Assembly (NCBI RefSeq): GCF_014643735.1
Contig: NZ_BMKA01000001.1
Coordinates: 248,001 to 312,000 of the forward strand
Direction of reading: 5' to 3'
Origin: Neptunicoccus cionae
Lineage (GTDB): Bacteria; Pseudomonadota; Alphaproteobacteria; Rhodobacterales; Rhodobacteraceae
DNA: 64,000 bases
Shown piece after piece: positions 8,338 to 46,686 of this stretch. Each line of letters begins with the position of its first letter. Positions within the stretch are counted from its first letter, which is position 1. Under the pieces are notes generated by a model. That model ran no database searches and had not been told where the DNA came from. It saw nothing but the letters and a program-made list of their open reading frames with translations. Position numbers and translations under genes: made by a program.

Positions 8338-8350
8338 GCGCGCTGCACCC

Positions 8351-9409
8351 TCAGCCGCGTTTTTCTTTCATGCGTTTGCGCAGGCGGGCCATGTGCAGAT
8401 CGAAACCGGGGGCGAGTGTGGAAATGCCGCGCCGCAGGATCATGCCCGGAAGGCTGCCCCGACTGCCTTTTTCGGGGGGCAAGGCCCGTTCGGCGTAGAT
8501 CATCCGCGTCTTTGCAGGTTTGGCGGGTGTCGCCATCGCCTGTTTTGTAAGCCGTGCGAACAGGCTCATCGTGTTGAATTCTTCCAGCAACAATTCACGG
8601 GCCTTACCAAGCGCGTCCCGCCTGTCCGACCACAGGTCTTCTCTCCGAGCTTGCATCATCCGGTTAATGGCCGCTTCAGGGTTGTCCATGTCCAACGGCA
8701 CGATGCTGTCGGCAGGCAGTTCTTCCGCCACATTGGTGCAGCCCACATAAAACGGGAGCGCCCAGCAGAGCAGCGGATCAGAGAGCTTTTCGGTCCACGT
8801 GTAGCGACCGGCACCGTTTTCCAAAGACAGGTGGTATTTGTGGGGCAGCAGTGCGTCCATTTTGTCGTCTATCGGTTTGAACCCACGGCCGTAGAGTTCA
8901 ATATGATCGGGGATTTTGTCTTTCAGCACTTCGATGAAGGCCAAACGTTTGCGGTGATATTCCGTGCTGGCCTTGGTGCTGGTTACGATGGAGATTTTGT
9001 CATCTTTGGCTGGGGGCTGAAGCGCTTTGAAGTGGTCATAGCCAAGCGCCGAGTCGAGGTTGGAGAAATCCACCCCAACGAACCACGGGAGGCAGTAATT
9101 GTGCTTGAGCCGTTCGGTTTTTAGCGGCTTTTCCCCCGGTGCTACAACGGCGGCGAACTGGTTGAGGAAGGCGGCTGAATAAGGGTGGATCTCCTCTGGC
9201 TCTCCGGCAACAAAGAAGCTGCGGGCGCGGGGCAGGGTGGTTTGCAGCGACCATGACGCACGCGTGTAGAGGATCAGCACATCTGCTGCGGGATCAACCG
9301 TTAGCCCAAAGGTAAATCGCACCCCCTGAAACTCCGGCTGCTTCCCTTTGGTCTGTTTGAGAAACAGGCGCGGGTCTATGTCTGTCAGGATATGGGCGTG
9401 TGGGGTCAT
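8351..9409 (-). CDS. Glycosyltransferase family 10 (fucosyltransferase-like)
   Basis: A GT10-type enzyme, the family of alpha-1,3/1,4-fucosyltransferases. The evidence is the C-terminal signature region KYHLSLENGAGRYTWTEKLS followed by LLCWALPFYVGCTN, which is the GDP-fucose binding core of GT10. The N-terminal half is divergent. The C-terminus is rich in Lys and Arg (RLRKRMKEKRG), consistent with peripheral membrane attachment as seen in Helicobacter fucosyltransferases. It faces the GT11 gene, so two fucosyltransferase-like genes sit tail to tail. The acceptor is unknown. Confidence 0.8.
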   Translation of the reverse strand: MTPHAHILTDIDPRLFLKQTKGKQPEFQGVRFTFGLTVDPAADVLILYTRASWSLQTTLPRARSFFVAGEPEEIHPYSAAFLNQFAAVVAPGEKPLKTERLKHNYCLPWFVGVDFSNLDSALGYDHFKALQPPAKDDKISIVTSTKASTEYHRKRLAFIEVLKDKIPDHIELYGRGFKPIDDKMDALLPHKYHLSLENGAGRYTWTEKLSDPLLCWALPFYVGCTNVAEELPADSIVPLDMDNPEAAINRMMQARREDLWSDRRDALGKARELLLEEFNTMSLFARLTKQAMATPAKPAKTRMIYAERALPPEKGSRGSLPGMILRRGISTLAPGFDLHMARLRKRMKEKRG

Positions 9410-9479
9410 AGTCGTTTCGAATGTTTGGTCGGGGTTCGTCCCCTTATAGCGCCGAAAGTCACCGACCTACACAAACAAA

Positions 9480-9508
9480 AGGCCCCGCGATTGCAGGGCC
9501 TTTCGGAA
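9480..9508 (-). terminator. Rho-independent terminator of pnp
   Basis: On the minus strand, 40-70 bases after the pnp stop, GGCCC and GGGCC arms enclose a ten-base loop, followed by CTTTTGTTTG. This is a normal intrinsic terminator for pnp. Confidence 0.75.
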
Positions 9509-9549
9509 ATTTGCAACAGAACGCCAAAGATGCTTTGGCGTGGGCTGTT

Positions 9550-11673
9550 TTATTCGCCAGCAGCGATTTCTTCGCCGGTTTCCTGATCGACCACTTTCAT
9601 GGACAGGCGAACCTTGCCACGATCGTCAAAGCCCATCAGTTTGACTTTTACGGACTGACCTTCGGAAACGATGTCTTTGGGGTGGCCAACACGCTCGTTT
9701 GCCATTTGGGATACGTGCACAAGGCCGTCCCGTTTGCCAAAGAAGTTCACGAATGCGCCAAAGTCCATCACCTTCACAACAGTGCCGGTGTAGACGGTGC
9801 CTACTTCGGGCTCTGCCGCGATGGACATGATCATTTCGCGGGCGGCTTCAATTTGCGCACCGTTGGAAGAGGCGATTTTGATCACACCGTCGTCGTTGAT
9901 ATCGACTTTTGCGCCGGATGTTTCAACGATCTCGCGGATCACTTTACCACCGGAACCGATCACTTCGCGGATTTTTTCCGGATTGATGTTGATGGTTTCG
10001 ATGCGCGGTGCATGCTCGGAGAAGGAACCGGTCTCGGACAGAGCTTTGTTCATCTCGTCCAGGATGTGCAGACGGCCGTCTTTGGCTTGGTCCAGCGCTT
10101 TTTCCATGATCTCTGTGGTGATGCCGGCAACTTTGATGTCCATTTGCAGGGATGTGATGCCGTTTTCTGTACCAGCCACTTTGAAATCCATGTCGCCGAG
10201 GTGATCTTCATCGCCAAGGATGTCTGTCAGAACAGCGTATTTGCCGTCGTCTTCAAGGATCAGACCCATAGCAACACCCGCAACAGGTGCTTTCAGTGGA
10301 ACACCCGCGTCCATCATGGACAAGGAGCCGCCACAGACTGACGCCATAGAGGAGGAACCGTTGGATTCAGTGATCTCGGACACAACGCGAATGGTGTATG
10401 GGAAATCTGTAGCCGCCGGCAGCACAGCCTGAAGCGCACGCCAAGCCAGTTTGCCGTGACCGATTTCACGACGGCCCGGGCCCATCATACGACCGCATTC
10501 ACCAACCGAATAGGGCGGAAAGTTGTAGTGCAGCATAAAGTTGGAGCGGAACATACCTGTCAGCGCGTCGATCATTTGCTCGTCGTCGCCAGTGCCCAGA
10601 GTGGTCACAACCAGACCTTGTGTTTCGCCGCGTGTGAACAGGGCGGAACCGTGGGTCCGTGGCAGGATGCCGGTTTCACCAACAATCGGGCGCACGGTGG
10701 ACAGGTCGCGACCGTCGATACGTTTGCCGGTGTTGACGATGTCGCCGCGCACAACAGAGCTTTCCAGCTTTTTCATCGCGGTGGACAGGTTGGCATCTTC
10801 GCGGTCTTCTTCGGACAGACCTTCGATGATTTTCTCACGGGCGGCGGAAATCGCAGCGGTGCGTTCCTGTTTGTCCGTGTTCCCGAAAGCGGCGCGCATG
10901 TCAGCTTCACCAATGGCAGTGATTTTCCCGAGGATGTCGGAATAGTCAGCTGGCTGGAAGTCAAACGGCTCTTTGGCGCATTCTTCGGCCATGTCGATGA
11001 TCAGGTCGATCACCGGCTGGATGGAGTCATGGGCGAACTGAACCGCGCCGAGCATTTCTGCTTCGGACAGCTCGTAAGCTTCGGATTCAACCATCATCAC
11101 GGCGTCTTTGGTGCCTGCAACAACCAGATCAAGGCGCTGCTCAGGGTTGTTGCGCAGCTCGTGCATGTCGTCCACAGTCGGGTTCAACACATATTCGCCG
11201 TCAACATAACCAACACGACAACCGCCGATTGGGCCTCTGAAGGGCGCACCGGACAGGGTCAGGGCAGCAGACGCCGCGATCATTGCAACCATATCCGGGT
11301 CGTTTTCCAGATCGTGGGACAGAACAGTCAGCGTCACTTGGGTTTCGTGTTTGAAGCCTGGAATGAACAAAGGGCGGATCGGACGGTCGATCAGACGCGC
11401 AGTCAGTGTTTCTTTTTCGGTTGGACGGGCTTCACGTTTGAAGAAACCGCCCGGAATTTTACCGGCGGCGTAGTATTTTTCTTGGTAGTTCACGGTCAGC
11501 GGGAAGAAATCCATTCCCGGCTTTTCTTTTTTGGCGAACACAACAGCGGCCAGAACAGATGTTTCACCCAGAGTGGCGATAACTGTGCTGTCGGCCTGAC
11601 GTGCGATTTTGCCTGTTTCAAGGGTCAGCGTCTCGCCGCCCCATTCAATTGATTTTTTGACTTCGTCAAACAT
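9550..11673 (-). CDS. pnp: Polyribonucleotide nucleotidyltransferase (PNPase)
   Basis: Phosphorolytic 3'-5' exoribonuclease of mRNA decay and component of the degradosome. The 707 residues show two RNase PH domains (first about 1-210, second about 310-540, with GRRE and [16 protein letters not shown]), then a KH domain ([15 protein letters not shown], about 565-590) and a C-terminal S1 domain ([19 protein letters not shown], about 622-690). Length is typical. rpsO lies upstream on the same strand but an MFS transporter gene separates the two, unlike the usual direct rpsO-pnp pairing. A hairpin terminator follows. Confidence 0.97.
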
Positions 11674-11858
11674 ACTTTTTCCTGTCTAGGCTACCGGGCC
11701 TTCCCGTATAGCCTTAGTTGTTTGGATGCCCCATTGCATCCCGCCCCGTACCATCGTTTGCAGCGGCGGGGCCGTATCACTGCATTTCAGATGCGCCCCC
11801 ATACAGCAGCTTGGCTCAAAAGGAAAGCAAAAGGGCAGTTTCGTGTGTTGTGGACGGA

Positions 11859-13073
11859 TCAGGGCTGCTTTGCCGCTTTGGAGAAGGTAAAGAGCAGAGT
11901 CGGGGTAACGACCATCGCTGCCATCAAGGCAAAGCCAAGCCGGTAGCTCTGCTCTGCGGGCAAGTTGGCTGTTTGCTGGATAACCACGCCGAACAGGGTC
12001 TGGAAGGTTGGAATCGCAGCGACTGCGATGATGGTATAAAGGCTGGTGGCGCGCCCGATCGCGGCGTCAGGTACGACTTGGCGCAGCTGCGCAATCAGGG
12101 GTACGTAAAACTGTTGGGCAAAGATCATTACGAACAACAGGACGTTTGCGGCCCAAAGCGGCATATCTGGAGTCAGGGCAAGAACGGACAGGCTGGCAAC
12201 CGAAGTCAGAGCACCTGTCAGGATCACACTATAGCGGGAGAACCGGCCCCAACGATCTATAAAGCCATAAGTCATGCCAGAAGCCATGGTTGCGCAGAAG
12301 AACAGCATCTGGAACAGGCCGGTTTCCTCCAATGACAGCGCGTGGACGGCTTTGTAATATGGGCCACCCCAGAGGCCGGTAATCGCGGTTATCGGTGCCC
12401 AGATCACGCAGGACATGATTAGAACGGGACGCACCCTGTCGTCTTTTATAAGGCCAAGGAAACCGGGGGCAGGGCCGCTGTGTTCGGGTTGGTCAACGGG
12501 GTCTTTTTTGGTGACAAGGAAGACCGCAGCGGCGAAGGCGGCGGTAAAGACCGACAGGCCGATAAAGACGTTGATCCAGCCAAACCGCGCTATCCCTACT
12601 GCCAGCGGATAGGTGGCCAGCAAGCCGCCAAAGCCGCCAAGTGTCACCATCAGTCCGTTAAGGAACCCGAATTGGCTCGCCGGGAAATTTCGCGCCAGCA
12701 GCATATACATGCCAACGCCGCCCACAGACAGGCCAAGCCCCAATAGAATACGAGCGAGGATCAGGGTGGTGAAGCTGGACGTGAAAGTGCAGGCTAGCGT
12801 TCCAAAGGCAAGGATTAGCAGGAACAGGCTGATGATCCGGCGTGGCCCGACACGATCCAGCAGGGAGCCGATAAACCCCTGCGCAACGATATTGACCATG
12901 AAGATTACGGAAATCACCAGACCAAGCTGATCCGCCGTCAGCAGGTATTCATCCTGCCAGACCGGAGCAACAATCGCACCCGCAGCGCGGTGGAACTGGC
13001 CCATTCCAAACAGGAAGACACAAATTGTAATTACTATAAATGATTGCAAAGAAAATCGAATTCTACGGGTCAT
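11859..13073 (-). CDS. MFS transporter
   Basis: A 404-residue major facilitator with about twelve hydrophobic segments. The loop after the second segment has the MFS motif A form GSLLDRVGPRRI, and the central loop (KKDPVDQPEHSGPAP) divides the two six-helix halves. The ATG at 13073 (MTRRIRFSL) is chosen because the next upstream in-frame ATG lies inside the terminator of rpsO. The gene is inserted between rpsO and pnp, all on the minus strand. The substrate cannot be inferred. Confidence 0.85.
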   Translation of the reverse strand: MTRRIRFSLQSFIVITICVFLFGMGQFHRAAGAIVAPVWQDEYLLTADQLGLVISVIFMVNIVAQGFIGSLLDRVGPRRIISLFLLILAFGTLACTFTSSFTTLILARILLGLGLSVGGVGMYMLLARNFPASQFGFLNGLMVTLGGFGGLLATYPLAVGIARFGWINVFIGLSVFTAAFAAAVFLVTKKDPVDQPEHSGPAPGFLGLIKDDRVRPVLIMSCVIWAPITAITGLWGGPYYKAVHALSLEETGLFQMLFFCATMASGMTYGFIDRWGRFSRYSVILTGALTSVASLSVLALTPDMPLWAANVLLFVMIFAQQFYVPLIAQLRQVVPDAAIGRATSLYTIIAVAAIPTFQTLFGVVIQQTANLPAEQSYRLGFALMAAMVVTPTLLFTFSKAAKQP

Positions 13074-37218: not shown

Positions 37219-38381
37219 TCAGTCCCCACCAATCAAATAACCCGCCCAATCCGCCAAGTATGGTTTGCGGCGTTCGAGGTAGTCCGCGCGGTTATAGGCA
37301 CCCTCCACATCGTTGACGGCGAAGTGTCCGAGGCAGGCCTCGGCCACTTCCCGGGCGCATTCTGTGCGTTCGGACAGCCATGTGCGCAATGTAGAGCGGA
37401 AACCGTGGGGGCGGGCTTCAAGGCCGCGCTCGACCATGTAGTTGCGCATGGACATCTTGTTCAGGGGACCGCCACGGCTGTTGGGAAAGAGATAGCCGTT
37501 CTGCTCTATCGCGCGGGCGAGATCGATCACGCGCAGGGCCTCATTGGACAGAGGCGCACGGAAGGGTTTGGTAAAGCCTTTGTGGCCTTTGACATGCTCT
37601 ACAGGTACCGTCCAGACGTCCTCGATGATCTGCTCAAGCTGCATGTTGTTGACCGCATTCGAACGCACTCCTGTCAGCATCAGCATGCGGAGCGCCAGTT
37701 CTGCGGGTGCGAACTCTCCGAGCGATTGGTAAGAGGCTGGTGCCTCAGCCCAGTCGAGCGCGGCGATATGGGTGACGGTGTGTCTTGGTGCACCGAGCAG
37801 GATGCGTGCTTGGTCAATGATGCCGAGGTTCACGTCAAAGCCTTTTGCGATGGCGTAGGTTAGGATCAGTTTTAGTCGGGACAAGGCCTTCTTTGCTGTG
37901 ACGGGAGAGGTCTCCCAGCCACGGGACAGTGCTTGCTTAATGTCATGTTGGTCAATCTAGACGACCGGCATCATTCCGAGATGGGGCAGAAGATGGTATT
38001 TGATCGGGCTGAACCACATCCCGTCCGACCCTTCATGCTTCAGCGTGGAGCGGTGGGCTTCAAATGCAGCATGGGCCAGAACATGGAACCGACCTTCCTG
38101 TGCACTTGCATGGTTTCTCTGTCGCCGCTTGATCTTGATTGGATCATCGCCGTTCGCCACAATCCGCCGCACATCATGGGCCGCTTTCCGCGCTTCTGCG
38201 AGAGACAGGAGGGGATAGGAACCAAGCCCCATCTCGCGCTGCCGACCGAGCAGCGAGAACCGGAAGGTCCATTGTGCCTGCCGCCTTTCTTCTTAAACAA
38301 CCATAACCCCTGTCCGTCGCAATGCTTGCCAGACGACAGGGACTTTAACTGTGCGACTGTAAAGAAATTCGATTTTGCCAT
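37219..38381 (-). pseudogene. P4-type tyrosine integrase, inactivated
   Basis: The N-terminus begins at ATG 38381 after GGAGGTAC (MAKSNFFTVAQLKSL, DUF4102 type). Near 38270 a single-base frameshift breaks the WTFRFSLLGRQREMGLGSYPLLSLAEAR segment, which continues in another frame. An in-frame TAG at 37957-37959 splits the core-binding part. The C-terminal catalytic domain (37219 to about 37884) is otherwise intact: TGVRSNAVNNM (first Arg), HGFRSTLRTW (H-x-x-R box), CLGHFAVNDVEGAYNR (H) and YLERRKPYLADWA. Only two lesions separate it from a full-length enzyme. Such integrases usually mark one end of a genomic island, here next to the IS-rich segment. Confidence 0.85.
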
Positions 38382-40300: not shown

Positions 40301-40500
40301 ATTCAATCCTTTCACTCCGTGTCAGGAGCCTGTCATATTGTTGATGTTTAAATGGGATCTGGAAGGCGTTTGGACAACGCACAATCCGTTAAAGCCGATA
40401 TGTGTATTTTGCATGGCTGGGACGGTTTTGTGGGATATCCGCGACATCGCGTTGTGCCTGACGCATGGATGCGGCATTAAAAGCGCAAAGGAGTTGTTGT

Positions 40501-41538
40501 ATGTTGGACGCGGGGATTAGGGCCATTCTGGACGCTTTGGGCGTCGCTGTATTTGTGGTCGACAGCAACCAGACCATCGTATTCCGCAACGAATCCGCGG
40601 TCAGTTTATTTGGGACGGGCACGCAGGGGCGTAAGCTCGCCCATTATGTGCCGAACAAACGCTGCATCCGCGCGGTTGAGGACACGATCGATGAAGGCGG
40701 CCAAGCCAAGGTGGATGTGCGGCTGCAACTGGTTGTCCCAACGACATTTTCCATGACTGCAGTGCGGGTTGATCCGGATGCAAGCCGCTCTGATGCGCTG
40801 GTCGTGGTAAGCTTTGAAGACGTCAGCCACATTGAAGAAGCCGAGCAGATGCGGTCTGATTTTGTGGCAAACGTCAGCCATGAATTACGCTCTCCTCTGA
40901 CTGCGCTGTATGGATTTATTGAAACACTTCAAGGGCCTGCGCGGTCTGATCCGAAAGCCTCGGACAGGTTTTTACACCTGATGGAGAAAGAAGCTGCGCG
41001 GATGGCACGGCTGATAGATGACCTTCTGTCCCTGTCCAAATTGCAGTCCGAAGAGAAATACGCGCCGACCACGGTGGTGGATTTGCGGCCGGTGCTGGAA
41101 CGGCTGAGCGCGTCTCTCGAACCGATACTGGACCGTGAGGAAACTACGGTAAAGCTGGATATTCCCACGGATCTGCCAGAGGTCATCGGCATCACCGACG
41201 AATTGACGCAAGTTTTTGCAAACTTGATCGAAAATGCCGCGAAATATTCCCGCAACGGTGCTGTGGTGTCGATCAAGGCCAGCGTGGATGATGTGGAGCC
41301 GGACATGGTGCGCGTTTCTGTCAGCGATCAGGGCGAAGGGATTGCGCCCGAACATATCGCCCGCCTGACAGAGCGGTTTTACCGGATCGACAAGGGGCGG
41401 TCCCGCGATAAGGGCGGCACCGGATTGGGGTTGGCAATTGTGAAGCATATCCTGATGCGCCACCGCAGCCGGTTACAGATTGACAGTACTGTTGGCGTTG
41501 GTAGCCGTTTTTCCGTGGTGATACCCCGCGCCATGTGA
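40501..41538 (+). CDS. phoR: PhoR-like sensor histidine kinase
   Basis: A 345-residue kinase with an N-terminal PAS-like domain (residues about 5-110: ILDALGVAVFVVDSNQTIVFRN) and no membrane segment. The HisKA domain has His127 in NVSHELRSPLTALYGF. The ATPase domain has N-box ENAAKYS, G1 DQGEGIAPEH and the F/G2 region FYRIDKGRSRDKGGTGLGLAIVKH. The best match in memory is the phosphate-regulon kinase PhoR, but no phoB, pst or phoU gene is in the window, so the assignment is by domain pattern only. ATG follows AAAGGAG. Confidence 0.8.
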   Translation: MLDAGIRAILDALGVAVFVVDSNQTIVFRNESAVSLFGTGTQGRKLAHYVPNKRCIRAVEDTIDEGGQAKVDVRLQLVVPTTFSMTAVRVDPDASRSDALVVVSFEDVSHIEEAEQMRSDFVANVSHELRSPLTALYGFIETLQGPARSDPKASDRFLHLMEKEAARMARLIDDLLSLSKLQSEEKYAPTTVVDLRPVLERLSASLEPILDREETTVKLDIPTDLPEVIGITDELTQVFANLIENAAKYSRNGAVVSIKASVDDVEPDMVRVSVSDQGEGIAPEHIARLTERFYRIDKGRSRDKGGTGLGLAIVKHILMRHRSRLQIDSTVGVGSRFSVVIPRAM

Positions 41539-41669: not shown

Positions 41670-43760
41670 ATGGATTTCAGCTGGAGCGCGCCGCAGGAAA
41701 CAACAGTCGTGGACGGGTATCTCGACTGGTTCGATCACGTATACCAGCCCCCCGGCGGCGGGGCGCTTGGCTATCGGCCCTTGCTGGTGCGGGTGAAACC
41801 GACAGGACGGCCTGCAACACTGCTGAAAACGCTGCGCTGGTTGAAACGCAAGCTCGACAGCGCGGGGCAGGGTGCGGATTTCCTTATGGACGGTGTCGAA
41901 CAAACGTATCTTGACCGGTTGCTCGATAATCCTCCAGCTAATGACGCTGCGCCCGATCTGTTTTTGCACGTCTCCAAAGCGTTGGGAGATTTCGGGGGCG
42001 ATTATGGCAAATGGCTGGAACCCCTGCCCAACGGGGCGGCGCGGCCGCCAGAGCCTTCCGCACCAACGCCATCGGGCGGAACACCGCGACCAGCACCGGT
42101 TGTGGCGGTGATCGACGATGCAATCGGTTATCTGAACGCGCGGTTTGCAACCGGACCGGCGCAACATCGCAAGACGCGCTTGGCGGCTGTTTGGTTGCAG
42201 AGCGAGGATCGTATCGTGGATGACGGCGGACAAATCGGGATGACTTGCGGGCGCGTTCTTAAGTCGGACGACATTAACACGCTGCTGGCGCAGGGGGGCA
42301 AGCTGGACGAGTCGGCGCAATATAGTGCGATGAACAAGGCGCTTTATGACCATCAGATCAGTCCGGTCTGGCATGGTATTACGGCGGGGGGCGGCTCTGA
42401 ACTGGCTAGCACACACGGCACGATTGTTGCGGATATTGCTGCGGGGGCTGATCCGCAAGACGCTACGGACAAGCTTTGTGAATGCCCGATGCTGGCCGCG
42501 CAATTGCCGCCCCAAGCGGTGGAGGATACGTCCGGAGCGAAATTGCAGCCCTATGTTGTGCGCGCTTTGCGCTGGATTATCTGGCAGGCGGACAGCTTGC
42601 AGGTTGACGGTCAGCACCGCCCGCTGGTGGTGAATATCTCCCTTGGTGTGCTGGCGGGGTCTAAAGATGGCACCAGCCTGATAGAGCGTCAGATCGCCGC
42701 CGAGATTTATCGGCGTGAAACCCGCACGGGCAGCCCGATGCGGGTGGTCTATGCCTTTGGGAATGACGGTTTGACTCGACAGGTCGGCTCGATTGATCTG
42801 GTGCCGGAGACGCCGCAATCGGTGACCTTGCGGGTGCAATCCGAAGACTACACCCCAAGCTTTGTCGAAGTGCGCCCCGATGATCCAACGGCGCTGACAC
42901 TTGGGATCGAGAGCCTGTTGTCTCAACCGCTTGCGCTAGGGGAAATTCCTGCCGGTCATTGTGTGTCCCTTGCCCGTGGCGCAGGTCCGGCGGTTGCCCG
43001 CATTTATGCGATTGGCCCGCAAGATTTGGACGGGGGCGGGCAGGCGGCGGGATATTACCTGCTGGCGATTGCTCCGACGGCCAGTTTCGAGGGGGGCAAG
43101 CCAATCGCGCCGAGCGGGCCTTGGCGGTTGTCCCTTGGTACAGATACAGCAGCGCAGAGCGTGCGGATTGAGGTCCAGCGGGACGATCGGCCCTTGGGGT
43201 TTCAAGCACTGGCTCGGCAATCCTATCTGGATGACACGTCTTTGTGGGATTGGAAGCCGCCGCAGAAGACCCCTTATGCGCCGAAAGCAGATGGTCCGGT
43301 TACGCGAATCGGGACGGAATCCGGCTGGTTGTCCGCTGGTATGCCCAAGCAGGTCTACTGCGTTGGCGCGGCCTTGTGTGACACCGGCTTTGCCGCGCCT
43401 TATTCCGCTACGGGCGGTCCGGCGTCTGCGAAAGAGCCCAGTATTTCGGCCATTGGCGACAGCAGCTGGACCCTACGCGGCGTCTTGGCGAGCGGTACGC
43501 TGAGCGGCAGTGCGACTGTGATGTCAGGTACGTCTGTGGCAGCGCCCCAGATCACGCGGCAGCTGGCACTGTTGTTTGCAGGCGGCGCGGACATTGGGCC
43601 GTGGCACCCGCCCGCGGATAACGCCGCGCGGGAGATGGCAGCGCTCGGGGCGCTCGACTGGTCTTTTGCGCCGCAATATGAACTGGACCAGCTTGGCCCG
43701 CTTAATGTTTCTGGAGAGGCAGGGTTACGGCCCCGCCTTGATGACGGGTACCGCCCTTAG
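41670..43760 (+). CDS. S8 (subtilisin-family) serine protease, cytosolic type
   Basis: A 696-residue peptidase with the full catalytic triad: Asp149 in VVAVIDDAIG, His249 in STHGTIVADIAAG and Ser622 in SGTSVAAPQ, plus the oxyanion Asn in YAFGND. There is no signal peptide or propeptide; an N-terminal unknown region of about 140 residues and a long insert between His and Ser (about residues 370-560) set it apart from secreted subtilisins. AAGGACG precedes the ATG. It is convergent with the collagen-like PAP2 gene. Its target is unknown; cleavage of the neighbouring protein is speculation. Confidence 0.88.
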   Translation: MDFSWSAPQETTVVDGYLDWFDHVYQPPGGGALGYRPLLVRVKPTGRPATLLKTLRWLKRKLDSAGQGADFLMDGVEQTYLDRLLDNPPANDAAPDLFLHVSKALGDFGGDYGKWLEPLPNGAARPPEPSAPTPSGGTPRPAPVVAVIDDAIGYLNARFATGPAQHRKTRLAAVWLQSEDRIVDDGGQIGMTCGRVLKSDDINTLLAQGGKLDESAQYSAMNKALYDHQISPVWHGITAGGGSELASTHGTIVADIAAGADPQDATDKLCECPMLAAQLPPQAVEDTSGAKLQPYVVRALRWIIWQADSLQVDGQHRPLVVNISLGVLAGSKDGTSLIERQIAAEIYRRETRTGSPMRVVYAFGNDGLTRQVGSIDLVPETPQSVTLRVQSEDYTPSFVEVRPDDPTALTLGIESLLSQPLALGEIPAGHCVSLARGAGPAVARIYAIGPQDLDGGGQAAGYYLLAIAPTASFEGGKPIAPSGPWRLSLGTDTAAQSVRIEVQRDDRPLGFQALARQSYLDDTSLWDWKPPQKTPYAPKADGPVTRIGTESGWLSAGMPKQVYCVGAALCDTGFAAPYSATGGPASAKEPSISAIGDSSWTLRGVLASGTLSGSATVMSGTSVAAPQITRQLALLFAGGADIGPWHPPADNAAREMAALGALDWSFAPQYELDQLGPLNVSGEAGLRPRLDDGYRP

Positions 43761-43767
43761 GGTCGCG

Positions 43768-44907
43768 CTAGCTCCATTCTGCCGCTGCGGCATCCCAGAG
43801 TTTTGACAACAGGTTTTCCCGCCCTGTCGCGGGCAGTGGGATCTCGGTTCGGGTGATGGTGGGATCATTGCTGCCCGGCATGGTTTCCCCCAGAAGCGAC
43901 AGGTTGAAATCCCCCTGAAATGCCCCGCCGTTAAAAGCATAGGCAGAGGTTTTATCGGCCTGACTGCAATAGTTCATGATAAATTCCGCAATCGCGATGC
44001 CAAGGGTCGCGCCTGCAACGCTGTCGGTCGGAAAGTGAACGCCAGCCACAGTCCGGTTCAACGCAATCCGCGCCGACAGACGGTAGGCGGGCAGCTGATC
44101 CTGCACGCCTTGCACAGGTGACTGGAAATCCGGATCGCTTAAACGGGCAAGCAGGGTCGCGGCAGCGAAGCTTTCGGTGGCGTGACCGCTTGGCCACGCG
44201 GGATGATCCGGAGAGGCGATCATCGGCTGGACCTCTTGCGCAAAGGCGATCGGGCGGGGGCAGTCAAACAACTGCTTCAGCCGCATCTCGCAGACCTGAC
44301 AACTGCGCTGCACCAGCGCCAGCAGTTCCAGCGTCCATTTGTGGGTATCGTTCGACAGATAGCTGAGCGCGCCGAAATAGGGTGTCAGATCACCGATCTG
44401 AGACTGAATTTCCGCCTGACGGTCAAACCGCAGATCGGCAGCGGTGCGCAAATAGTAGAGTTGCTCTTCAAACTGGGGCAGTCCGGGGCGCGTCAGGGTG
44501 ACAATCGGTGTCAGGGTTGTGCCGTCCTGAAAGCTTACGCCTGCTTCATTGTGGGTGACGGTGTTATCGACCCGCAAAAGGCCCATGATCTCGGCAAGGA
44601 TCGCCGCGGAGCGCGGGTAGCTGCCCATCTTCTTGAAGGTGCGCCACTGTCGCGCGGCACTGCTGCCGTTGCCTGTTTGATAGGATACGGGGCGTTTCGG
44701 GGTGCCGTCCCAGAACCGTTGGGTGCCGTCCCGCGTGGTGATCAGTCCAGTGCCCAGATACGCAGAGCCGCCCTGACCTTGAGGCCCCTGCGGCCCTTGG
44801 GGGCCTTGCGGTCCCTGCGGGGTTTGTGGGCCTTGCGGACCTTGTGGGCCCTGCGGACCTTGGGGGCCTTGCGGACCCTGTGGGCCTTGTGGTGTATAGA
44901 TTGCCAT
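43768..44907 (-). CDS. PAP2 / vanadium haloperoxidase-fold enzyme with collagen-like N-terminus
   Basis: A 379-residue fusion. Residues 5-47 are collagen-like: TPQ, seven GPQ units, TPQ, four GPQ units, then GQGG. Residues about 80-310 form a PAP2 or vanadium haloperoxidase fold with the phosphate/vanadate site: Lys211 and Arg218-Pro219 in [13 protein letters not shown] at 239-242, Arg285 and His291 with Asp295 in [12 protein letters not shown]. The enzyme is either a phosphatase or a halide peroxidase; sequence alone does not decide. No Sec signal precedes the repeats. The ATG at 44907 follows AAAGGAG. Divergent from a SARP-like regulator and convergent with the S8 protease. Confidence 0.85.
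44780..44896. repeat. Collagen-like coding repeat (Gly-Pro-Gln triplets)
   Basis: On the minus strand, 9-base units of the form GGNCCNCAR encode tandem GPQ triplets, interrupted once by TPQ. Codon usage varies between units, so the tract is not a perfect DNA repeat, though slippage could still change its length. Confidence 0.85.
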
Positions 44908-44985
44908 AAACCAAACTCCTTTAAACAATTGCTACATTGAATGAACTGACAGGGATTATGTCAAATCATCGCTGCAAACTGCTGC
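44908..44985. promoter_or_regulatory. Shared divergent promoter region
   Basis: 78 bases between the PAP2-type gene and the regulator gene. Both ribosome sites and two promoters must fit here, unless the regulator starts further in. Nothing more specific, such as an operator repeat, is clear. Confidence 0.4.
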
Positions 44986-46686
44986 ATGTATTCACGATTA
45001 ATTCACACTCATGCGAAACACCTGCTAAGATACCACCATTGGATGCAAACCCTGACAGGGGTTCAAGTCCAAGCGTACTTAAGGGCGAATTTTAGCGTTG
45101 TGACCAATTCATTATCAATCCAAACCATAGGACCACTGCAAATTCTGGGTCCGGACGGCGAAATCCTGACGCCCAAAGGGGCGAAGTCTTGCGCGTTATT
45201 GGCCATTCTTGCGTTGACCGACGGGAAGGCGCGGCCAAGACGTTTTTTGGAGGAGAAACTGTGGAGCGGGCGTGATCCTGAACAGGCGGGGCAAAGCCTG
45301 CGTCAGGAGTTGACCCAGATCCGCAAGGCACTCGGGGTGTATAAATCCTGTTTTGTGGTGGATCGTACCACGGCTCGTTTGGACGCCGCGGCTGTGGACG
45401 TGGACTGGGATAATGCAAGAATTAGCACAGATGACACGCGCGAGTTGCTTGAAGGCCTTAGCGTTCGTGACCCTGCCTTTGAAGACTGGCTTGGCGAAGT
45501 GCGCGAAGCCTTTGATCGCCGCAAGACGGCGCTTGCTGCACGCAGCCACGGATTGATCTTACGCACCCGCAGAAGCAACGGGCCGGAAGGGTCCAAAAGC
45601 ATCCTGAGCGAGGTTCTCGCGGATCAAATCGGCCAGAATATAGCTGAACAGGTGCGTGCGTGGCGGCAGGTTAACGTGCGCATGGCAGAATCCGATCAGG
45701 ACGAAGCCGAAATTGAGATCAGCGCGCATGTGGCCGAAGAAGACGGAAAAAGCCTTGCCTTTATCCGTCTGATCCATCCCGCAACGGGGCGTGTGCTGCA
45801 CACACAAAAGGCGCTGGTGAACAGTGGCGCTTTGCAAGCGGCGAGCGAGGATTTGCTGGCCGATATAACCATTGAAGCTGCGGAAAAGACGCTTGATGCG
45901 ATGGGCAAGGCGTTCCCGTCGGAACGGCCCGAACTGGCATCGGCCGCAATGGCGCGGCGGGCGGTGCGGGAAATGGAGAGCTTTGAAGCGGGGCGTCTGG
46001 ATATTGCGGAGCGTCTGTTGGACAGTGCCTTTGATATTGATCGCAACGGGTTGTTTCTGGCGTGGCAAAGCCTGCTAAAAACCATCCGCCTGACTGAACT
46101 GCTTAGCACAGATGCGCAGGCGGATATGGCGGTGATCGAAGAACTGAACCGCAAGGCGATGGAACTGGACGGGGAAAACCCGCTGGTGCAGGCTTTGGTC
46201 AGTCAGGTGCAGGTCTTGATGTTCGCAGACCTCGGTGCGGCTAACGCGGTGGCGCAGCAGCGGCTCGATCCAAACCTGTCGGGCGCGTTTTCGATGGTAT
46301 CACTGGCCAGCGCGAATATGTGGGACGGGGACAGTGAAGCCGCCTATGCGCTAACGAAAAAAGCGACATCTGTGGCGGGGCGATCCAGCTTCCATCACTG
46401 GTGGGATACGTTCCACTGCATCAGCTGTATCGCTTCCGGGCGCTATGAAGAGGCGATCCGCTTTGGGGAATCCGCGCGTAAGACGGCGCCGAACTTTCGT
46501 CCGCCGCTGCGCCATCTGCTAGCACTGTTCGCCCACACGGGGGAGCGGGAAAAGATGCACATCGTGGCGGACCAGTTGAAGCGGCTGGAACCCGATTTCT
46601 CGCTCGAACGGTTCAAATCGGACGAGGCCTATCCCGTGCGCACCCTGCGCCATGCCAATCTGCTGGATTTCCCGATCGACGACTGA
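44986..46686 (+). CDS. SARP/BTAD-like transcriptional regulator
   Basis: The N-terminal part (about residues 45-145 from this start) has the winged-helix pattern of OmpR/SARP activators: IQTIGPLQILGPDGEILTPKGAKSCALLAILALTDGKARPRRFLEEKLWSG followed by SLRQELTQIRKALG. The rest is helical, TPR-like and has no ATPase. Starts at 44986 (ATG), 45043 (ATG) or 45100 (GTG) are possible; none has a clear ribosome site, so the N-terminus is uncertain. It is divergent from the collagen-like PAP2 gene and shares an 80-base promoter region with it, so it likely controls that gene. Confidence 0.75.
   Translation: MYSRLIHTHAKHLLRYHHWMQTLTGVQVQAYLRANFSVVTNSLSIQTIGPLQILGPDGEILTPKGAKSCALLAILALTDGKARPRRFLEEKLWSGRDPEQAGQSLRQELTQIRKALGVYKSCFVVDRTTARLDAAAVDVDWDNARISTDDTRELLEGLSVRDPAFEDWLGEVREAFDRRKTALAARSHGLILRTRRSNGPEGSKSILSEVLADQIGQNIAEQVRAWRQVNVRMAESDQDEAEIEISAHVAEEDGKSLAFIRLIHPATGRVLHTQKALVNSGALQAASEDLLADITIEAAEKTLDAMGKAFPSERPELASAAMARRAVREMESFEAGRLDIAERLLDSAFDIDRNGLFLAWQSLLKTIRLTELLSTDAQADMAVIEELNRKAMELDGENPLVQALVSQVQVLMFADLGAANAVAQQRLDPNLSGAFSMVSLASANMWDGDSEAAYALTKKATSVAGRSSFHHWWDTFHCISCIASGRYEEAIRFGESARKTAPNFRPPLRHLLALFAHTGEREKMHIVADQLKRLEPDFSLERFKSDEAYPVRTLRHANLLDFPIDD

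Follow-up and report, generated by a model that had tools for sequence, protein, structure and literature searches.

In a 64,000-nucleotide stretch of the Neptunicoccus cionae genome (contig NZ_BMKA01000001.1, positions 248,001 to 312,000; hereafter the window), three adjoining genes code for a serine protease of the S8 (subtilase) family, an enzyme of the PAP2 superfamily and a regulator with a C-terminal TPR domain. We found that this trio is a real three-gene system of Pseudomonadota. The PAP2 enzyme carries at its N-terminus a tandem array of one short peptide, the unit of which differs from lineage to lineage, and among close relatives the TPR part of the regulator follows that unit. Since the repeats are uniform, lineage-specific and selected, and stand beside a co-varying TPR regulator, we propose, with a probability of about 0.5, that the trio is an intracellular recognition or signalling module. 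In it, the TPR regulator would read the array as a lineage-specific ligand or tag, and S8 would control the signal. An earlier note on this DNA had placed the three genes here and taken them for a system, unless they occurred together only in this genome. All three are present, and further trios were found in Rhodobacterales, Hyphomicrobiales and Burkholderiales.

Among the matches listed, the nearest named relatives were Amylibacter cionae m18 (PAP2 95%) and Neptunicoccus sediminis (92%). A scan of GTDB with the active-site pattern of PAP2, in which the repeat is not involved, gave at least 551 relatives, and the best 80 were kept. PAP2 and S8 were searched for separately in 72,556 plasmid records. 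PAP2 was detected in 37 records and S8 in 34, and all S8-positive records fell within the PAP2-positive ones, with adjacent coordinates. The regulator, PAP2 and S8 adjoined each other in all 12 plasmid loci inspected closely. With S8 as the only query, 22 places were found in 20 of 398 genomes of the phylum; PAP2 adjoined 18 of these places (16 genomes), and the four weakest had no PAP2 neighbour, wider stretches included. In the family of the nearest relative, a PAP2 match of at least 190 bits was present in 94 of 394 sampled genomes, as counted by hand from the listing, and a match at E ≤ 1e-25, weak matches included, in 125 of 394. At E ≤ 1e-40, PAP2 was detected in 2 of 369 genomes from the class of a Hydrogenophaga genome, one of them being that genome itself. 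Phage collections gave only 2 weak matches, and viral collections gave 80 viral-contig loci with a distant PAP2. The PAP2 profiles were built on alignments with array columns and may be slightly biased toward array-bearing members; the first finds, on plasmids and in the GTDB pattern scan, are independent of such profiles.

The gene order was compared in 69 loci with less than 70% identity of the PAP2 core. The regulator cluster was present in 69, the PAP2 cluster in 68 and the S8 cluster in 68 of them. The next clusters of open reading frames (ORFs), found in 18, 15, 15, 12 and 11 loci, are unannotated and overlie the trio genes by position; they look like shadow ORFs. A fourth gene recurred in about 11 of the 69 loci at most: the flanking genes 5-8 kb away belonged to unannotated clusters with no wider spread. 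The sample was enlarged by 100 loci from the nearest relative's family. In all 161 intact trios with non-identical cores, the regulator lay upstream and S8 downstream of PAP2, in three strand layouts (56, 56 and 49 trios). The total set contained 203 PAP2 records, with some places represented twice. The 42 records outside the 161 had a sub-threshold or masked array, lacked one of the partners within 1500 bases, had a duplicate core, or were second copies within one locus. Exceptions to the order occurred beyond the 161: a regulator-like gene was found past S8 in L289, L293, L345, L347 and L348, and S8 was located elsewhere in L033/L286 and L070. The L033/L286 contig is labelled Enemella evansiae, and its NSQ-type trio resembles those of Mameliella; the assembly is possibly misassigned. 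In L289 (5107-9903), a 1599-aa ORF with RTX-like glycine/aspartate repeats lies immediately upstream of PAP2. In L010 (Palleronia; 8344-12101), a gene of the heme peroxidase family and a C1 peptidase gene stand beside the trio, and the cluster of this peroxidase ORF was found near 5 of the 69 loci.

A tandem peptide repeat with a score of at least 12 was found in 195 of the 203 PAP2 records. By comparison, this score was reached by 27 of the 11,783 remaining ORFs (shadow frames counted) of the window and L001-L092. Among the eight records without a scoring array, two are truncated at contig ends, a third is masked and a fourth has three HAK units; the other sub-threshold arrays are two interrupted ones (GAF or AAF) and one degenerate NTRSG array, and the GAQ units of L320 lie in a frame that differs from the enzyme's. 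The array starts at a median of four residues past the nearest upstream Met. The unit depends on the lineage: it is GPQ in the window and GHE, NSQ, FNS, GGL, SGGA or TGW elsewhere, with 98 distinct units among the 161 trios. The period is 3 residues in 125 trios, 4 in 25, 2 in 5, 5 in 3 and 6 in 3. Glycine is present in the unit of 129 trios and absent from that of 32, and cysteine was found in none. In the two genomes searched, the (GPQ)3 DNA pattern was detected nowhere but in the PAP2 gene. The AlphaFold2 model of the window enzyme shows a mostly disordered array, with a predicted local distance difference test score (pLDDT) below 50 at residues 1-14 and 22-44. The Gly-Pro-Gln repeat had been described in the earlier note as a collagen-like tail of a possible surface structure. 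It is located at the N-terminus, the units of most relatives are non-collagen ones, and inspection by eye revealed no export signal. The Pfam Collagen model stayed below its cutoff on the window array (24.7 vs 27.2 bits). The collagen reading was rejected, because relatives bear units such as NSQ and FNS and the family as a whole has no glycine at every third residue.

Within each array the peptide is nearly perfect, with 1666 of 1698 units equal to the majority unit in 177 non-identical arrays. The codon mismatch between units of these arrays is 0.039, 0.029 and 0.611 at positions 1, 2 and 3, respectively. Such scrambling of third positions under identical amino acids indicates that selection holds the peptide. 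The window, L013 and L040 were compared pairwise over 36 aligned array codons, the odd TPQ unit included: each pair differed synonymously in 19-23 codons and nonsynonymously in 0. For the 333 core codons of the same records, the figures were 106-126 and 17-27. Judging from the synonymous-only differences and the third-position scrambling, the repeated peptide is under purifying selection. Units also switch as a whole, as GGF, GGL and SGF arrays occur on cores that are 85-88% identical. The mixed array of L009 (NAH3-TAQ4) and the nearly DNA-homogeneous MSSG array of L073 suggest a small seed as the origin from which a new unit expands. The number of FNS units is 5, 6 or 7 among seven Phaeobacter records of three species. 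The units of paralogues differ in all 15 genomes with at least two readable arrays, which says little because the measured paralogue cores are 28-42% identical, a range where unit sharing is already rare. Neighbouring units share codons less often than expected (1395 vs 1831; 149 of 177 arrays below expectation). We rejected this scrambling as a trait specific to the array because 7 of 9 control repeats (H1-like APAKK, DPV; L060, L062, L073, L075, L068, L072 and others) were also below expectation, one of them barely. In these genomes, peptide repeats may generally have scrambled codons.

The regulator had been called a SARP-type winged-helix protein. The AlphaFold2 model (pLDDT 90) contains the winged helix, but also an alpha/beta middle domain, which we liken to TolB-like domains, and about six helical hairpins. 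Two Pfam matches, Trans_reg_C (E = 0.0065, 17 vs 26.2 bits) and TPR_19 (E = 0.0052), were below the cutoff. A profile of 60 regulators matched consensus TPR structures with E = 5.8e-126. At E ≤ 0.01, the output domain of these 60 proteins was Trans_reg_C in 10 and Guanylate_cyc in 9. A rough sorting of 162 regulators by motif gave 81 SARP-like, 17 cyclase and 64 unsorted ones. The TPR part is the common element of the regulators, and the output domain varies.

The prediction that the TPR part, and not S8, follows the array unit was set before testing and was prompted by an earlier hint. We used 51 independent close pairs, 23 with the same and 28 with different units. With the PAP2 core and S8 as covariates, same-unit pairs exceeded different-unit pairs in TPR similarity by 3.7 points (p = 0.028); no effect was observed for the helix-turn-helix (HTH) part, the middle domain or S8. 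With the other segments as covariates, TPR gave p = 0.0020-0.0064 in quadratic models at three thresholds, and 0.006, 0.019 and 0.066 in linear ones. In the same models the PAP2 core, which is the array's own polypeptide, was borderline (0.05-0.07), and S8, HTH and the middle domain had no excess. At a mean identity above 0.5, partial correlation was clearly positive only for TPR (0.29) and the PAP2 core (0.21). When unit similarity was graded, all distances together favoured the core and TPR, the middle domain being weaker. The unit was shared with the nearest neighbour in 57 of 98 cases when neighbours were taken by TPR, in 55 of 98 by PAP2 core, 48 of 98 by S8, 45 of 97 by HTH and 45 of 98 by middle domain. 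The TPR core was right and S8 wrong in 10 cases, and the reverse was found in 1 (p = 0.012); between the TPR core and the PAP2 core there was no difference (4 against 2). On trees of 154 trios, the unit changed 106 times for TPR, 108 for the core, 110 for S8, 110 for the middle domain and 112 for HTH, and subsamples of 95 columns gave means of 107.0, 109.2, 111.1, 109.0 and 112.7, respectively. The effect persisted among divergent genes, where the array and the TPR end lie farthest apart (35 pairs, p = 0.011), and recombination between neighbours is therefore an unlikely cause of the co-variation.

The column scores were highest at regulator residues 360-500. Helix A scored above helix B in all five TPR repeats (0.099 vs 0.042, p = 0.0085). 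The helix limits had been fixed before the model was available; at the A helices the two agree to about three residues. Helix A is the one that lines the TPR groove, and its co-varying residues lie around positions 361, 369, 407, 438, 445, 479 and 510. A second patch that co-varies with the unit was noticed in the PAP2 core, in columns 126-175 past the array (window residues ~170-220; means of 0.085 and 0.05 in two 25-column blocks), and it is possibly a docking surface for the regulator.

Several results weigh against the recognition reading. In the p-values, pairs or labels count as exchangeable, so that the phylogeny is partly left out of account. Similarity of the whole regulator did not follow the unit in the 51 pairs (p = 0.36), and one of the linear models gave the value of 0.066 mentioned above. 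Over all distances and with the exact unit, TPR reached only 0.015 (p = 0.066), and the core, S8 and the middle domain had larger values. The boundary of the TPR core, 360-500, was picked after the profile was known. The codirectional subset, too small by itself with 4 same-unit pairs, gave p = 0.28, and no 34-residue periodicity of the co-varying columns was detected (p = 0.22). As a TPR ligand, a unit of 2-3 residues is short, unless binding involves several units together. An exporter was not seen by eye, and neither was an export signal on PAP2 (no predictor was run). In close pairs, S8 does not follow the unit. Recognition of the array by TPR is a candidate function to which statistics point. 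The proposal of the earlier note that the regulator controls the enzyme gains a link of the same statistical kind from the co-variation of TPR and array.

If the trio is a recognition module, the cytoplasmic PAP2 enzyme would display a disordered array, one short peptide about ten times, at its extreme N-terminus. The TPR groove of the neighbouring regulator would read this peptide, in the way that TPR domains read extended peptides. Binding would switch the N-terminal output of the regulator, which in many lineages is a winged helix and in others a nucleotide cyclase. S8 probably controls the array signal; its cleavage of the array or of the enzyme would free short repeat peptides or clear the tag. 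The direction of the response and the substrate of the phosphatase we can only infer. A more far-reaching form of the proposal, which we find rather doubtful, is a private-channel peptide code of Gram-negatives. Each lineage would carry its own word on a cytosolic phosphatase, with a TPR domain tuned to that word and S8 releasing or erasing it; new words would arise by unit expansion and be fixed together with matching TPR changes. If true, the private-channel code would provide signalling specific to a lineage, or an identity mark of kin, built of words about 2 to 6 residues long. A peptide code in general is made plausible by the multi-copy identical peptides with TPR receptors that are known from the Rap-Phr systems, according to the excerpts of PMC11343458.

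The active-site residues K, R, H, R, H and D of PAP2 are kept in all 105 aligned cores. The best Foldseek matches of the window model (pLDDT 88) were the acid phosphatases 7f17, PhoC and PhoN (E 3.1e-5), and the best haloperoxidase gave E 3.4e-3. The template modelling (TM) score against the acid phosphatase fold was 0.66 by target length and 0.38 by query length. By its predicted fold, the enzyme is more similar to class A acid phosphatases than to haloperoxidases, and the haloperoxidase chemistry considered in the earlier note is weakened accordingly. The core is not strongly hydrophobic, with a median peak of 1.41 and values of at least 1.8 in 6 of 203 records. Among the members scanned, no NCBIfam family above cutoff covers PAP2 or S8; HxsA4 matched 1 of 60 PAP2 members, probably through the repeat.

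The catalytic triad of S8 given in the earlier note (Asp149, His249 and Ser622) is intact, and it is kept in relatives. In 102 aligned sequences, gaps excluded, Asp was found in 98 of 99 (one Glu), His in 100 of 100, Ser in 101 of 101 and the oxyanion Asn in 101 of 101. The S8 of L010 had no clear catalytic Ser in an alignment of 12 sequences. By their conserved residues, PAP2 and S8 both look active. No export signal of S8 was seen by eye, and no predictor was run. S8 weakly matched CspB 4i0w by sequence (E = 0.0012) and, in PADLOC, IetS (E = 0.022, 10.9 bits); beyond the latter, PADLOC gave no match for the three proteins of the window. A role of S8 as a sequence-specific reader of the unit was unsupported, as its similarity does not follow the unit among close pairs, which also weighs against processing by a protease specific for the unit.

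Self-assembly is the main rival explanation, and we regard it as unlikely. The array would then be a homotypic tag by which the repetitive N-terminus assembles the enzyme into a polyglycine-II or collagen-like bundle or a condensate; any uniform unit would work, and the regulator would merely control expression. The uniformity within arrays, the free choice of the unit, the glycine in 129 of the 161 trios and the disorder of the array when modelled alone fit such a tag. The 32 units without glycine do not, and it counts against the tag that known collagens tolerate mixed X and Y residues; moreover, it leaves unexplained that TPR tracks the unit, unlike HTH or S8. The switching of units on conserved enzymes has also been weighed as the trace of a conflict, with the array as a bait or self-identity mark of a tripwire module, turned over under pressure from foreign proteases or inhibitors, and with S8 and PAP2 as effectors released when the array is hit. 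We consider this quite improbable. The patchy distribution, the plasmid records of PAP2 and S8, the intact active sites of both hydrolases and the weak match to the defence protease IetS are in its favour, but PADLOC held nothing stronger for the window's proteins, no widely recurring fourth gene was found in the 69 loci, whose neighbours were not searched for defence genes, and close relatives keep their unit without a nonsynonymous change.

Still less likely, in our view, is a peptide-pheromone precursor, in which S8 would cut the array into copies of a short exported or shared signal and the TPR regulator would be its receptor, as in RRNPPA systems. All types of parts are there, namely a TPR receptor with a DNA-binding domain, a multi-copy identical peptide and an S8 protease, and the excerpts of PMC11343458 report Rap-Phr propeptides that contain as many as 8 identical copies of the pheromone. 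This explanation is opposed by the large enzyme as carrier, by the lack of a signal peptide or exporter on inspection by eye and by S8 not following the unit among close pairs. To a neutral microsatellite, in which replication slippage decorates a dispensable N-terminus, we assign practically no weight. The varying unit number in Phaeobacter and the L073 array, homogeneous enough in its DNA for a recent origin, would agree with it. As the main explanation, slippage is refuted by the scrambled third positions under identical amino acids, by the prevalence of the array and by the synonymous-only change among close relatives; it may nevertheless supply new units.

The coordinates of the trio in the window are given in Table 1. 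The gap of 78 bases between PAP2 and the regulator, reported in the earlier note, is correct between the two ATG codons; the regulator may instead start at GTG 45100, which lies near the beginning of its conserved part and makes the start uncertain. GGAG precedes the ATG of PAP2, and a divergent promoter is presumed between the two genes. Upstream of S8, a gene of a PhoR-like histidine kinase was noted at 40465-41538 (+; NCBIfam phoR, 321 bits vs a cutoff of 334). At 37219-38381 (-), pieces in different frames resemble, by eye, a broken tyrosine-recombinase/integrase gene.

Table 1. Positions of the trio and its parts in the window.
Feature	Coordinates	Strand	Basis
S8 (subtilase) serine protease, 696 aa	41670..43760	+	Pfam PF00082 Peptidase_S8, E = 1.5e-13
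PAP2-superfamily enzyme, 379 aa from ATG 44907	43768..44907	-	Pfam PF01569, E = 3.9e-14
Array (PQG)7-PQT-(PQG)5, PAP2 residues 6-44	44776..44892	-	Translation; TRF 44777-44893
Regulator ORF (winged helix, alpha/beta middle domain, C-terminal TPR)	ATG 44986..46686	+	Model, family profile
TPR core of the regulator, residues 360-500 counted from ATG 44986	46063..46485	+	Peak of column co-variation
Intergenic stretch of the divergent PAP2 and regulator genes, for a regulator start at GTG 45100	44908..45099		Sequence; inference

The trio as a system fits none of the families compared here. None of the open-access papers listed in the literature searches names it, judged from titles and the beginnings of abstracts, and a word search in PMC7159879 gave no mention of PAP2. 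The class A acid phosphatases PhoN, PhoC and 7f17 of P. aeruginosa share the active-site residues of PAP2 and are the closest solved folds. They are secreted proteins, and the structures listed have 201-232 residues; the trio enzyme has a larger core, an array and, by eye, no signal peptide. Vanadium haloperoxidases share the residues of the PAP2-type metal/phosphate site, but the closest fold is not a haloperoxidase. Bacterial collagen-like proteins (Scl, Lcl) are alike in the GPQ unit of this lineage and unlike the units of most relatives, and no surface anchor was seen. The likeness to HxsA, a family of His-Xaa-Ser repeat proteins, is limited to the single HxsA4 match; HxsA is accompanied by radical SAM enzymes, and its unit is fixed. 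IetS is the S8 protease of the IetAS defence system, and the match of our S8 is too weak for membership; the partner ATPase was neither looked for nor noticed. Tandem identical peptides and a processing protease of the S8 family occur together in the yeast alpha-factor precursor with Kex2, but that precursor is a secreted eukaryotic protein without a carrier enzyme. In these searches we found no described parallel for a repeat that is near-perfect inside a protein yet rewritten between lineages. About a hundred natural peptide words with paired TPR domains make ligand-receptor co-evolution and the peptide specificity of TPR directly testable. The reading also gives a hypothesis of a role for genes annotated just as PAP2 phosphatase, S8 peptidase, TPR or winged-helix protein, in about one in four of the genomes sampled from the family of the nearest relative (94 of 394 by PAP2 matches of at least 190 bits).

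The closest likeness in parts is to the RRNPPA systems (Rap-Phr, PlcR-PapR). According to PMC11343458 and PMC10075063, these combine a TPR receptor bearing an N-terminal output domain with several identical short linear peptides, and they also have receptor-peptide specificity and involve proteases. A C-terminal TPR with an N-terminal output domain, like that of RRNPPA receptors, was found in the trio regulator by model and profile. The trio differs in its occurrence in Pseudomonadota, in the winged-helix or cyclase output and in its own linked S8 gene. An adjacent small propeptide gene with an export signal, as in RRNPPA systems, is absent, the signal being judged by eye; the repeat peptide is instead the N-terminus of the PAP2 enzyme. 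With no visible export signal, an enzyme as carrier and a varied output domain, the trio is set apart from Rap-Phr. By this comparison, Pseudomonadota may possess a counterpart to RRNPPA-type peptide recognition.

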